A DNA stretch of 64,000 nucleotides from Thermoplasmata archaeon (GTDB taxonomy: Archaea > Thermoplasmatota > Thermoplasmata > Thermoplasmatales > Thermoplasmataceae): assembly GCA_021797555.1 (NCBI GenBank), contig JAJZZM010000013.1, positions 1 to 64,000 on the forward strand, given 5' to 3'. Position numbers and translations under genes: made by a program. The notes beneath the pieces were generated by a model. It made no database searches, had not been told where the DNA came from, and saw nothing but the letters and a program-made list of their open reading frames with translations. Every line of letters begins with the position of its first letter. Positions within the stretch are counted from its first letter, which is position 1. Positions 54,980-58,829 of this stretch are shown here, piece after piece.

Positions 54980-55519
54980 TTAAATTTTATTGAAATATAT
55001 TCTTTTAAAGTTCCACCGTTTATCCATATCAGACCTTTTTCCTATTAATATATGATTAATTATTACATCCTTATCTATATTAAAATCCTTCAAATCATTG
55101 ATTATATCATTTAACCTATTATCATCAACATTCTTTCTGACAAGGCTAAAATGCGGTATAAATTTATCATTTATAAATACATTCTCCTTTAATTCAAGAC
55201 TTAATTTATCATGAAAAATTTTTAATTCCTCTGAAGGTATAACGTTTATATAGACTATATAATATTTTTTATCATTTTTTATTCTCTCAAAGTAATTTAT
55301 ACTATCTATTTTCATAGTTAATTCCTTTGTTTCATTGCATACTTTAATTATCTTATCTACGCATAATTTATTATAATTTTTTAAATATAACAATGTTATA
55401 TGGACACCTTTATTGCTCAAAGTTCCTGTATATCCATATTTCTTTTCCAGTTTATTTTTTATATACGTTATTTTATTCCTTATATTTATATCAGGTTTTA
55501 TTATGACTGTATAATACAT
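54980..55519 (-). CDS. thpR: RNA 2',3'-cyclic phosphodiesterase (2H family)
   Basis: A 179-residue 2H phosphoesterase (LigT/ThpR). The two motifs are HITL (H40, T42) and HFSL (H123, S125), each a HxTx/HxSx active site half. Between them lie beta-strands typical of the duplicated fold. It opens 2',3'-cyclic phosphates of RNA; the true substrate in archaea is not settled. It is followed 22 bases later by apgM on the same strand and may share its transcript. Confidence 0.87.
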   Translation of the reverse strand: MYYTVIIKPDINIRNKITYIKNKLEKKYGYTGTLSNKGVHITLLYLKNYNKLCVDKIIKVCNETKELTMKIDSINYFERIKNDKKYYIVYINVIPSEELKIFHDKLSLELKENVFINDKFIPHFSLVRKNVDDNRLNDIINDLKDFNIDKDVIINHILIGKRSDMDKRWNFKRIYFNKI

Positions 55520-55691: not shown

Positions 55692-56246
55692 ATGGAAAAC
55701 AGTTATGTAAAATTTGAAGCTCCCGAATCGTTAGAAAAAGAAGTATTAGACTTCGTAGAAAATTCTTACAGATCCGGAAAGATAAAGAAAGGAACAAATG
55801 AAGTAGTAAAATCAATAGAAAGAGGAGAAGCCAAATTAGTTATTATATCCGAAGATGTTTCACCGCCGGATGTTGTGTTTTATTTGCCAACATTATGCGA
55901 GGAAAGAAAAGTTCCGTACGCATATGTAAAGAATAAAAAAGACCTCGGAGTAAAAGTAGGAATAGCATCTGCAGCATCACTTTCAATTACGGATTATGGA
56001 AAGAACGATGATGCATACAAATCTATAATATCTGGAATCAATGAAGCAAAATCAGGCAAGGAAGAAAAGAAGGAAAACAAGAAACTTGAAAACAAGGAAG
56101 AAAAGAAAGTAGAAAAGCCCGAAAAGGAAGAGCCAAAGGAAAAGAAAGCAGAAAAGAAGGAAGAAAAACCCGAAGAAAAGAAACCAAAAAAAGCCAAGAA
56201 AGCAGAAAAGAAGGAAGAAAAACCCGAAGAAACTGATGAGGAATGA
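55692..56246 (+). CDS. rpl7ae: Ribosomal protein L7Ae with a long Lys/Glu-rich tail
   Basis: Residues 1-117 form the L7Ae domain, which binds kink-turns in 23S rRNA, box C/D RNAs and RNase P. KKGTNEVVKSIERGEAKLVI and EDVSPPD, then LPTLCEERKVPYAYV are the family landmarks. Residues 118-184 are a KEEK-type low-complexity tail that the usual 117-125-residue archaeal proteins do not have. The tail DNA includes a 37-base direct repeat. It leads the translation operon L7Ae-S28e-L24e-ndk-aIF5B. Confidence 0.93.
   Translation: MENSYVKFEAPESLEKEVLDFVENSYRSGKIKKGTNEVVKSIERGEAKLVIISEDVSPPDVVFYLPTLCEERKVPYAYVKNKKDLGVKVGIASAASLSITDYGKNDDAYKSIISGINEAKSGKEEKKENKKLENKEEKKVEKPEKEEPKEKKAEKKEEKPEEKKPKKAKKAEKKEEKPEETDEE
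56142..56232 (+). repeat. 37-base direct repeat within the L7Ae tail
   Basis: The sequence beginning AAGAAAGCAGAAAAGAAGG recurs exactly at 56142-56178 and 56196-56232, an offset of 54 bases (18 codons), so the encoded peptide KKAEKKEEKPEE repeats in frame. This suggests growth of the tail by slippage or tandem duplication. Confidence 0.85.
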
Positions 56247-56251
56247 TATAA

Positions 56252-56461
56252 ATGGCAGATGAAGCAACTCCCGCAGAAGTTGTTGAGTTAATGGGAAGGA
56301 CAGGCATGACCGGCGAGGCAACAACTGTAAAGGTAAGGGTGCTGGCCGGAAAAGACCAGGGCAGAATAATTGCAAGGAATGTGCTTGGTCCTGTCGCCGT
56401 TGGCGATATACTCATGCTAAGGGAAACGGCAAGAGAAGCAAGAAGATTATCAATAAGGTGA
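56252..56461 (+). CDS. rps28e: Ribosomal protein S28e
   Basis: A 69-residue small-subunit protein with an OB-like fold. [20 protein letters not shown] then [19 protein letters not shown] is the family core, and it ends at LSIR as usual. GATATAAATG precedes the start with weak GTGAT-like signal at the end of L7Ae. It sits between L7Ae and L24e, the standard archaeal order. Confidence 0.94.
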
Positions 56462-56466
56462 TATAA

Positions 56467-56664
56467 ATGGAAAATAGAAAATGTACCTTTTGTGGGCACG
56501 ATATTGAACCGGCATCAGGTATTATATACGTAAGGAGAGATGGTGCCATTTTAAATTTCTGCTCAAAAAAATGCAAGGTCAATATGATACAGTTAAAGCG
56601 TGCGGCAAGAAATACGAAATGGACAAATGAGTATCATAGAATAAAAGAAATGAGAAAGGCATGA
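56467..56664 (+). CDS. rpl24e: Ribosomal protein L24e
   Basis: A 65-residue zinc-ribbon ribosomal protein. [13 protein letters not shown] and [10 protein letters not shown] hold the four Cys ligands, followed by [10 protein letters not shown] with basic rRNA contacts. A GGTGAT site precedes the ATG. It is standard for archaea in length and order. Confidence 0.94.
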
Positions 56665-56668
56665 TAAA

Positions 56669-57088
56669 ATGGAGAGAACTCTAATACTGATAAAACCCGA
56701 TGGAGTTAAAAGAAAACTCATAGGGAATGTGATCTCAAGATTTGAGAACAAGGGCCTGAAATTAATAGCAATGAAATTTATGAAGGTTACAGAGGATCAA
56801 GCCAAACAGCATTATAGTGTTCATAGCTTAAAACCCTTTTTTAATGGTTTGGTTTCATATCTTATTTCCGGTCCTATTGTTGCAATGATTTTTGAGGGAG
56901 ACAACGCAATATTATCATGCAGAAATATATGCGGGGCCACAGATGGGTCAAAAGCAAATCCCGGAACAATAAGGGGCGATTTTTCATTAAACATTGAAGA
57001 AAATATGGTCCATGCCTCGGATTCTGTAGAATCATTCAAGCATGAATACCCAATATTTTTTAATGATAATGAAATAATAGATAATTGA
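56669..57088 (+). CDS. ndk: Nucleoside diphosphate kinase
   Basis: A 139-residue enzyme that transfers phosphate from ATP to other NDPs through a phospho-His. LILIKPDGVKRKLIG is the N-terminal signature, NICGATDGSKANPGTIRGDF the nucleotide pocket, and NMVHASDS holds active-site H115. The gene is in the usual archaeal block between L24e and aIF5B, overlapping neither but separated by 1-5 bases. Confidence 0.95.
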   Translation: MERTLILIKPDGVKRKLIGNVISRFENKGLKLIAMKFMKVTEDQAKQHYSVHSLKPFFNGLVSYLISGPIVAMIFEGDNAILSCRNICGATDGSKANPGTIRGDFSLNIEENMVHASDSVESFKHEYPIFFNDNEIIDN

Positions 57089-57089
57089 T

Positions 57090-58829
57090 ATGGAAACCAC
57101 AAAAACTGATTTAAGGGAGCCTATTGTAAGCGTTCTTGGCCATGTTGACCATGGAAAAACCACACTGCTAGATGATATTAGAGGCACCACGTATGCCAAA
57201 AAGGAAGTTGGCGGCATAACACAGAAAATAGGTGCAACAGAGATAGATAAATTAACACTGAAAAAAAATATTAATAAATATTTTAATAATATAGAAATAA
57301 AAATTCCCGGATTATTATTTATAGATACCCCGGGCCATGTTGCATTTTCAAACATGCGTGCAATGGGGGGAGCACTGGCTGATATCGCTATTTTAGTTAT
57401 AGATATAAACGAAGGGCTAAAACCACAAACAATAGAATCAATAGACGTTTTAAAAAAATATAAAACACCATTTATAATTGCCGCAAATAAAATGGATTTG
57501 ATACCATATTTTATAAATGGGAAAAATGACTCATTTTTTAACGTGTTTAAAAATCAGAGGCAGGAATATAAGGAAGAATTAGATAATAGAATTTATAAGA
57601 TAATCAATGATTTATATATACACGGCATATCGTCTGATAGATATGATAGGATAAAAGATTTTACAAAATCATTTGCAATAGTTCCTGTAAGTGCCAAATT
57701 GAATATAGGGATACCCGATATTTTAATGGTTTTAACGGGCCTGGCACAGCGTTTTCTTGATAAGAATATACAGTTCGAGGAAAGAAATACACGTGGAACT
57801 GTAATAGAAGTAAAGAAGGAAGATTCACTTGGAACTACATTAGATACAATATTATATCAGGGCACACTGAACAGGGGCAATACAATAGCATTAAATACAA
57901 TAGAAGGGCCAAAAACAACAAGAATAAAGGCAATACTGGCAGCGGGAAAAAAAGGGCTTATAGAAGAGGATACTGCTAAAGCAGCAGCGGGCATAAGGAT
58001 ATTAATTACGGATAAACTGGATGTAATATCTGGCACTTCAATAATAAAGGTGGATAATGATACAGGATATGCATATAATGAACTTATTAAGGAATCAAAG
58101 CCAGATATAAAACTATCGGAAAATGGTGTTACCGTTAAGGCAGAGGCTATCGGTTCATTAGAGGCAATAGCATATGAACTTGAGCAGAATAAAATTAATA
58201 TAAGATCCGCAGAAATAGGAGATATAACAAAAAGGGATATAATTAATGTATCAACGTTAAATAATCCAATGGATCAGGTAATAGTAGGTTTTAATATAAA
58301 TATATCAAGTGATGCAAAGGATGCCATAGATACATATGGTGCAAGGGCAATCACAGGCAATGTAATATACTCCATAATAGAGGATCTTGATAGCTGGTTA
58401 AAGTTTAAAAAGAATGAAATAGAGGAAGCAAAGAAAAATAGTAAACCAGTACCATCAAAGTTTATTATAATGCCGGATTATATATTCAGGGCTGCAAAAC
58501 CTGTAATAGTTGGGATAAAAATATTATCAGGCAGGGTCAAAGTTGGCGATAAGTTAATAAATAATAGCAATAAATATGCGGGCACAGTTCAGAGTTTAAG
58601 GGATGGTGATATAAGCAGGCAATTCGGCGATAAGGGATCAGAATTATCATGTGCCATAGCCGGAGTTATATTAAACAGGCACATATTTCCGGATGATGAA
58701 TTATATGTGGATGTCCCTGAAAATGTTATAAAGGAATTAAAGGATCAGAATTTGGATCCGGACATTAAAGAAACAATGGATGAATTAATAAAAATAAAAA
58801 GAAAGGATAATCAGTTCTGGGGATTTTAA
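57090..58829 (+). CDS. infB: Translation initiation factor aIF5B (IF-2-like)
   Basis: A 579-residue GTPase that promotes ribosomal subunit joining and initiator tRNA binding. G1 is GHVDHGKT (17-24), DTPGH is G3 and NKMD is G4. Domains II, III and IV follow in the archaeal short layout, with no long charged N-terminal extension. Its start lies 2 bases after ndk, so it is the last gene of the operon. The stop abuts the convergent exchanger gene. Confidence 0.95.
   Translation: METTKTDLREPIVSVLGHVDHGKTTLLDDIRGTTYAKKEVGGITQKIGATEIDKLTLKKNINKYFNNIEIKIPGLLFIDTPGHVAFSNMRAMGGALADIAILVIDINEGLKPQTIESIDVLKKYKTPFIIAANKMDLIPYFINGKNDSFFNVFKNQRQEYKEELDNRIYKIINDLYIHGISSDRYDRIKDFTKSFAIVPVSAKLNIGIPDILMVLTGLAQRFLDKNIQFEERNTRGTVIEVKKEDSLGTTLDTILYQGTLNRGNTIALNTIEGPKTTRIKAILAAGKKGLIEEDTAKAAAGIRILITDKLDVISGTSIIKVDNDTGYAYNELIKESKPDIKLSENGVTVKAEAIGSLEAIAYELEQNKINIRSAEIGDITKRDIINVSTLNNPMDQVIVGFNINISSDAKDAIDTYGARAITGNVIYSIIEDLDSWLKFKKNEIEEAKKNSKPVPSKFIIMPDYIFRAAKPVIVGIKILSGRVKVGDKLINNSNKYAGTVQSLRDGDISRQFGDKGSELSCAIAGVILNRHIFPDDELYVDVPENVIKELKDQNLDPDIKETMDELIKIKRKDNQFWGF

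Follow-up and report, generated by a model that had tools for sequence, protein, structure and literature searches.

A predicted disordered lysine/glutamate tail on the L7Ae protein of the Ferroplasma–Acidiplasma clade

The L7Ae protein encoded in a Ferroplasma genome ends in a tail of 67 residues consisting mainly of lysine and glutamate, and this tail is a real, selected and clade-specific extension. The gene lies in a stretch of 64,000 nucleotides that was analysed as a whole (hereafter, the window). The distribution of the tail, its single origin, its predicted disorder and the purifying selection acting on it are each supported by computation, with high to very high confidence. For its function, an electrostatic tether on L7Ae-containing RNPs, a tolerated low-complexity growth and a solubility bristle are proposed, and the latter two are serious rivals to the first. 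A first, sequence-only reading of this DNA had placed it in an acidophile, and the organism is indeed a relative of acidophiles (Ferroplasma).

The L7Ae gene and its C-terminal tail

The L7Ae/eL8 gene (55692–56246, + strand) encodes 184 residues plus a stop codon. It belongs to Pfam PF01248, and the NCBIfam model for eL8/L7Ae, TIGR03677, matches residues 5–119 with 150.8 bits against a curated cut-off of 134.6. The folded, k-turn-binding core corresponds to residues 1–117 (55692–56042, + strand), and its C-terminal helix reaches residue 121. In the AlphaFold2 model, ten-residue block means of pLDDT are 90–95 from residue 11 to 120. The sequence NEVVK fits the NEXXK motif, described as the k-turn recognition motif of L7Ae (PMC4919917), and N36, E37 and K40 are invariant among 34 aligned sequences. 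When the modelled core was compared with the PDB, the first 45 matches listed were archaeal L7Ae, its RNP or ribosome entries, or engineered L7Ae derivatives, with TM (target) values of 0.80–0.95, and the matches include chains from archaeal C/D RNP, H/ACA RNP, RNase P, 50S and 30S entries. The archaeal L7Ae chains among the PDB matches listed are 117–155 aa long, and since the three longest align from residue 21, their extra length is mainly N-terminal. The nearest named loci to the window gene are those of TL2-1.bin13 (96% over the core) and TL1-4.bin55 (94%).

The gene is followed on the + strand by those for ribosomal protein S28e (56252–56461; NF003080, 115.8 bits), ribosomal protein L24e (56467–56664; NF034186, 91.4 bits), nucleoside-diphosphate kinase (NDK; 56669–57088; NF001908, 197.2 bits) and translation initiation factor aIF5B, the archaeal IF-2 (57090–58829; NF003078, 677 bits), giving the operon order L7Ae–S28e–L24e–NDK–aIF5B. 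A gene resembling RNA 2',3'-cyclic phosphodiesterase is divergent from this operon (54980–55519, − strand; TIGR02258, 42.6 bits, below the cut-off of 65.7). Scans for promoters and terminators gave numbers close to chance (five found versus 3.8 expected, and one versus 0.6).

The tail comprises residues 118–184 (56043–56243, + strand). The sequence-only reading was right in starting it at residue 118 and slipped by two bases in placing this start at 56045, as the codon begins at 56043. It had also described an unusual Lys/Glu tail of 67 residues, and this is confirmed by the composition of 26 K, 24 E, 5 P, 4 A and 8 other residues, attached to a core of ordinary size (about 120 residues). Equally correct was its observation of an exact duplication of 37 bases at an offset of 18 codons (54 nt); copy 1 lies at 56142–56178 and copy 2 at 56196–56232, both on the + strand. 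A repeat of 37 nt was reached by none of 1000 codon-order shuffles and by 3 of 1000 synonymous-codon shuffles in which the order of the protein was fixed (offsets of at least 30 nt). With a 61-residue cut of the tail and offsets of at least 12 nt, 0 of 500 shuffles of either type reached it.

The tail is predicted to be disordered and is nearly net-neutral, with pLDDT below 50 across residues 124–182 in the AlphaFold2 model. Statistics were calculated for ten readable tails, 37–82 aa long by our cut, the L036 sequence being left out for its Ns. The fraction of charged residues is 0.79 in the window tail and 0.63–0.79 over the ten, and the net charge per residue is 0.000 in the window tail and −0.03 to +0.08 over the ten; an open frame and a near-neutral balance are found in all ten. 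Kappa, which describes charge patterning, is 0.02–0.17; seven of the ten values are inside the band of 0.1–0.4 given for the KKE/D domain of eukaryotic Cbf5 (PMC11528048), and the window tail, at 0.096, is below it. No PDB homologue of the tail was found up to an E value of 10, an absence for which correction for low complexity could also account.

The end of the tail is joined closely to the next gene. At 56232–56254 (+ strand), the last codons ACT GAT GAG GAA TGA run into the start of S28e, and a purine-rich stretch lies where a Shine-Dalgarno sequence would be. The gene ends in GAG-TGA directly before the S28e start in all nine readable tailed relatives and in both loci with a short stub in place of the tail, and in GAG-GAA-TGA in the window. 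This purine-rich end is a putative ribosome-binding element of S28e. If it is one, it would fix the last residues of the tail and confine growth to the interior.

Distribution and origin of the tail

In-frame tails were found in 11 separate assemblies of the Ferroplasma and Acidiplasma clade, in which ten distinct loci were measured. In an order-wide search, L7Ae was detected in 59 of 61 genomes and was missing from G034 and from G003, a genome of the same genus that is 91% complete. Within the genus, the gene is present in the window genome and in eight of nine relatives (the exception being G003), and seven of these eight have intact tails. The eighth, Ferroplasmaceae archaeon UBA567 (G001; loci L127 and L036), has a run of Ns inside the tail, after which the frame is lost, as expected if the repeat is hard to assemble. 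All three L7Ae sequences of the Acidiplasma clade are tailed, with total lengths of 195 (L033, assigned to this clade by the tree only), 183 (L034) and 160 aa (L035). Thus the tail is not new in this genome, as had been supposed, since it is intact in seven Ferroplasma genus-mates and three Acidiplasma-clade sequences. Sharing by relatives, which would mark the tail as an old family trait, holds inside the Ferroplasma–Acidiplasma clade and fails among the L7Ae relatives compared outside it.

Outside the clade, two loci have a stub only. The sister genome G027, which is probably Picrophilus, ends in KSGKSENKE, and the contig L039 ends in KSGKAEQKE. Among 80 named contigs, nine are tailed and 71 untailed, one of the latter being cut by the contig end. 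The 23 most distant L7Ae loci (45–56% identity; 19 titled other than Thermoplasmata) end 117–124 residues past the match start, which bears out the statement that archaeal L7Ae usually ends near residue 120. A phylum survey gave an L7Ae match in 249 of 250 genomes, and the presence of tails was judged from the best 150 of the 249. Of these 150, 28 have an open frame of more than 146 aa, namely two Ferroplasma (G004 and G009) and 26 that were read individually; among the 26, only G185 (Acidiplasma) has a tail. In the others, except G021, the extra length is solely upstream of the L7Ae core. The matches with shorter frames, mostly judged by frame length, have space for at most about 25 extra residues. 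A short C-terminal addition of ten residues, KGLSDQSGGR, unrelated to the K/E tail, was observed in L063 and L199 (G021). Among the other archaeal L7Ae proteins read (those of the 80 contigs and the long-frame sequences within the best 150 of the 249 matches of the phylum survey), no comparable K/E tail was seen outside Ferroplasma and Acidiplasma, and no report of the Ferroplasma tail was found among open-licence publications.

The tailed sequences are of single origin. In a tree of five proteins, for which 53 taxa out of 66 loci had usable data, the ten tailed sequences form one clade with a support of 1.0. In a maximum-likelihood tree with G027 added (54 taxa), the tailed clade and the group of this clade plus G027 are both supported at 100. 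L036, the tail of which is broken by Ns, was scored as tailed in both trees, and the branch supports were verified split by split. Since the tailed clade is single and its sister has a stub, the simplest path leads from no tail through a stub to a long tail, taken once.

The repeats inside the tails are specific to lineages. Next to the 37 nt at offset 54 in the window, there are exact repeats of 50 nt in L053, 34 nt in L037 and 19 nt in L010, all three at offset 66. L031 has 23 nt at offset 42, which was reached by 18 of 500 synonymous shuffles, and the 18-nt repeat of L032 is marginal against shuffles. No repeats beyond those of shuffled sequences were detected in the tails of L033, L034, L035 and L038. 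The tail thus arose once and was then remodelled by different duplications in different sub-lineages. Internal duplication, proposed from the sequence as the way in which the tail grew, did help to shape it, but the 37-base duplication is one late event, and sister lineages have different duplications or none above chance.

Selection and possible functions

Substitutions were compared in seven pairs of tailed genes. Two pairs are uninformative, L031/L032 being too close and the window and L037 being saturated. In the other five, dN/dS is 0.075–0.26 for the tail and 0.019–0.037 for the core, so that the constraint on the tail is 3–7 times weaker than that on the core. These NG86 values take no account of transition bias. 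Because such bias can mimic a low dN/dS, a matched test was applied to K/E codons only, in which first-position A↔G changes (K↔E) were counted against synonymous third-position A↔G changes. Alignments with gaps lean towards the matching of charges; therefore, the gap-free pair L037/L010 is the clean one, and it gave 0:8 (P 0.004). The ratios were 1:10 for L037/L053 and 1:12 for L010/L053, and the three pairs within L037, L010 and L053 are mutually non-independent, the clean pair having eight changes. For the window and L031 the ratio was 3:11 (P 0.03), and for L033/L034 it was 2:7 (P 0.09). The charge pattern, besides the composition, appears to be held by purifying selection, which makes some function for the tail likely without pointing to any particular one. 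The sequence-only reading had suggested that the tail could alter crowding or partner binding.

As the most likely explanation, advanced tentatively and with less than even confidence, the tail may serve as an electrostatic tether on RNPs that contain L7Ae. The tail itself originated on the stem of Ferroplasma and Acidiplasma, between the L7Ae core and the gene end, and its starting point was probably a short C-terminal stub such as the sister lineage has. In-frame duplication and deletion lengthened and shortened it, with the K:E balance and the local charge pattern maintained. As a tether it would be a mobile charged arm, and its contacts with neighbouring rRNA, pre-rRNA and other RNPs would be weak and multivalent, with no sequence-specific binding. 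Such a tether would raise the local dwell of L7Ae particles near RNA targets (50S and its assembly intermediates, C/D and H/ACA sRNPs and RNase P), an action comparable to that suggested for the KKE/D tails of yeast Nop56, Nop58 and Cbf5. Since the core matches several RNPs and the window genome has genes for both Nop5 and Cbf5, the tail is probably carried on several RNPs. It counts against a tether that the tail is near-neutral, unlike KKE/D domains, so that its attraction to RNA may be weak near neutral pH. The absence of such a tail from Nop5 in the three genomes read, the basic and older extension of Cbf5, and kappa values under the KKE/D band in three of the ten tails also count against it.

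Tolerated low-complexity growth is a serious rival, if a rather unlikely one, in which an exposed C-terminus accepts slippage and duplication of a purine-rich repeat that is harmless and otherwise functionless. The repeats that differ by lineage, the variation in length from 37 to 82 aa and the constraint 3–7 times weaker than that on the core all agree with such growth, and low-complexity segments are common in prokaryotic ribosomal proteins (PMC6821194). A functionless tail is nevertheless hard to reconcile with dN/dS well below 1 in every informative pair, with the absence of K↔E changes against eight synonymous ones in the gap-free pair, or with the open frame and near-neutral balance of all ten readable tails.

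The other serious rival, which we consider unlikely, is a bristle for solubility or stability, by which a neutral hydrophilic tail would counter the aggregation of ribosomes and RNPs in a cytoplasm that is acidic and crowded, through hydration and steric effects and not through contact with RNA. High charge with almost zero net charge would suit this role, as would the internal pH of 4.9±0.5 reported for F. acidarmanus; however, the value reported for Picrophilus oshimae is 4.6 (PMC3372908), and the stub-bearing sister, probably Picrophilus, has no long tail at a similar or lower internal pH. K/E segments also occur on other proteins of the lineage, namely the stalk protein aP1 and an FKBP/SlyD-like isomerase, but scans of the window genome caught no K/E tail on any ribosomal protein other than L7Ae and the stalk proteins. 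These scans used a K/E codon pattern (10 codons with at most one base mismatched, or 15 codons with at most three) and matched five places in the whole genome: aP1, the L7Ae tail, the isomerase, a short ORF at C10:216878 and C20:19481. The pattern is the same when read backwards; thus, the built-in control of the scans is uninformative.

Two of these places were observed further. The FKBP/SlyD-like peptidyl-prolyl isomerase has a C-terminal K/E-rich tail (G000:C23:23572-23643, L214, in the window genome; relatives L204, L205, L206, L207 and L158), which is longest in G017 and is different and less charged in G032; a search with Pfam PF00254 missed the copy of the window genome. The short ORF (G000:C10:216878-216907, L122) has 66 residues with a K/E run, and its C-terminal part contains cysteines and histidines.

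A more specific form of the tether is doubtful. In this form the tail would be a pH-gated, independently evolved archaeal counterpart of the KKE/D tail, with near-zero net charge at pH 5.6 and above and a strongly positive charge towards pH 4–4.6 as its glutamates are protonated, so that acid stress would cause L7Ae particles to bind RNA and condense. Using textbook side-chain pKa values, the charge of the window tail was computed as about 0 at pH 5.6, +2.6 at 5.0, +6.4 at 4.6 and +14.4 at 4.0. Other internal pH values for Ferroplasma are near 5.6. Because the reported cytoplasm of Ferroplasma is near the pKa of glutamate, the tail is predicted to be close to its charge switch at physiological pH. 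Against gating stands the stub-bearing sister, probably at an equally low internal pH and lacking a long tail; moreover, neighbouring charges shift pKa values. If gating were true, it would give a clear example of how a disordered tail can be adjusted to an unusual cytoplasm.

A tail that recruits translation factors as an imitation or copy of the aP1 K/E hinge is very improbable. The composition of the aP1 hinge in these genomes nearly matches that of the tail, and long DNA words shared between the tail and the aP1 hinge of the same genome were found in three of nine genomes (20 nt in G005, 21 nt in G006 and 18 nt in G008, reached by 2, 1 and 6 of 300 shuffles, respectively). In the other six the shared word is unremarkable (the pairing of G222 with L033 being assumed), and in the window genome, where a copy of the hinge is unsupported, it is 16 nt long and reached by 66 of 300 shuffles. 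The conserved GLGSLFG with which aP1 ends is missing from the tail, the hinges from other genomes match it about as well as the own hinge does, and the stub of the sister suggests stepwise growth rather than a copy. A K/E scan of 18 genomes gave a match in 17 (not in G024), and the aP1 hinge was read in 15, indicating that the hinge is general and the L7Ae tail is not.

An artefact of assembly or gene calling, thinkable for a genome of 24 contigs (1.94 Mb) in which repeats can collapse or expand and in view of the N-run and lost frame of G001, is rejected, since in-frame tails of this kind, set in the same ribosomal operon, recur in 11 separate assemblies, one of which is the complete chromosome of F. 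acidarmanus Fer1.

Comparison with known systems

Judged by the sequence and fold of its core, its NEXXK motif and its operon neighbours S28e and L24e, the protein is a common archaeal L7Ae/eL8 (TIGR03677). The difference lies in the K/E tail of 37–82 aa added in Ferroplasma and Acidiplasma, as the untailed archaeal L7Ae proteins examined have about 117–131 aa (one of them cut by the contig end). The aP1 (L12) hinge of the same genomes has a nearly identical amino-acid composition, but it is internal, ends in the conserved peptide GLGSLFG or similar, and is distributed far more widely. Low-complexity segments have been reported to be frequent in prokaryotic ribosomal proteins, with L12, L10, S24e and S3 named for archaea (PMC6821194). 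The L7Ae tail is likewise a charged low-complexity segment on an abundant ribosomal protein, although L7Ae is not among the archaeal proteins named in the part of that source available to us.

The closest functional comparison is with eukaryotic snoRNPs. The KKE/D domains of Nop56, Nop58 and Cbf5 were described in 2024 as disordered, highly charged and net positive; in vitro, peptides of the yeast domains form condensates with RNA, and the domain, to which targeting to nascent rRNA is also attributed, promotes rRNA modification (PMC11528048). Lysine-rich disordered domains of this kind are called a major, nucleolus-linked feature of eukaryotic snoRNPs and are stated to be absent from archaea (PMC11528048). 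In archaea, the C/D particle consists of L7Ae, Nop5 and fibrillarin, and the H/ACA particle of L7Ae, Nop10, Gar1 and Cbf5 (PMC3608112). A co-evolving set of K/E tails on Nop5 and Cbf5 was considered and rejected: Nop5 has no tail in the three genomes read, and the extension of Cbf5 is basic and older.

This Cbf5 extension is an observation of its own. The protein ends in a basic, probably disordered region rich in R, K, G and N, roughly 60–70 residues long by our cut, in 12 of 13 genomes (G000, G009, G026, G017, G027, G025, G005, G020, G032, G024, G185 and G002; loci L145 in G000, and L143, L144, L232, L233, L234, L235, L236, L237, L238, L239 and L240). Every one of the 12 genomes read from the family thus has the extension, whether its L7Ae is tailed or not, while it is absent in G040 (L231), which belongs to another family. 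As it also occurs in genomes without the L7Ae tail, it is older and wider than that tail. It too fits poorly with the claimed absence of lysine-rich extensions from archaeal snoRNPs.

With related genera having no tail, a stub or a full tail on the same protein, there is a natural minimal test of the function of the tail, and some of these genera presumably have cultured members. Like the KKE/D domains, the L7Ae tail is terminal, predicted to be disordered and a strong polyampholyte rich in K and E, in which glutamate separates lysine doublets, and its carrier is likewise a core component of C/D and H/ACA particles. It differs in being net neutral, and in its position on L7Ae, which is also part of the ribosome itself, instead of on Nop5 (the counterpart of Nop56/Nop58) or Cbf5. 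Common descent is not indicated, the tail having a single origin inside one archaeal family and on a different protein; since it is confined to one archaeal clade, the likeness is convergent. The tail is thus not a member of the KKE/D group, and by analogy it may work alike. It resembles tails that have been described as restricted to eukaryotes and their rRNA-modifying machinery (PMC11528048), and in this clade a Lys/Glu tail was acquired independently, by a core component of archaeal C/D and H/ACA particles and in cells without a nucleolus.
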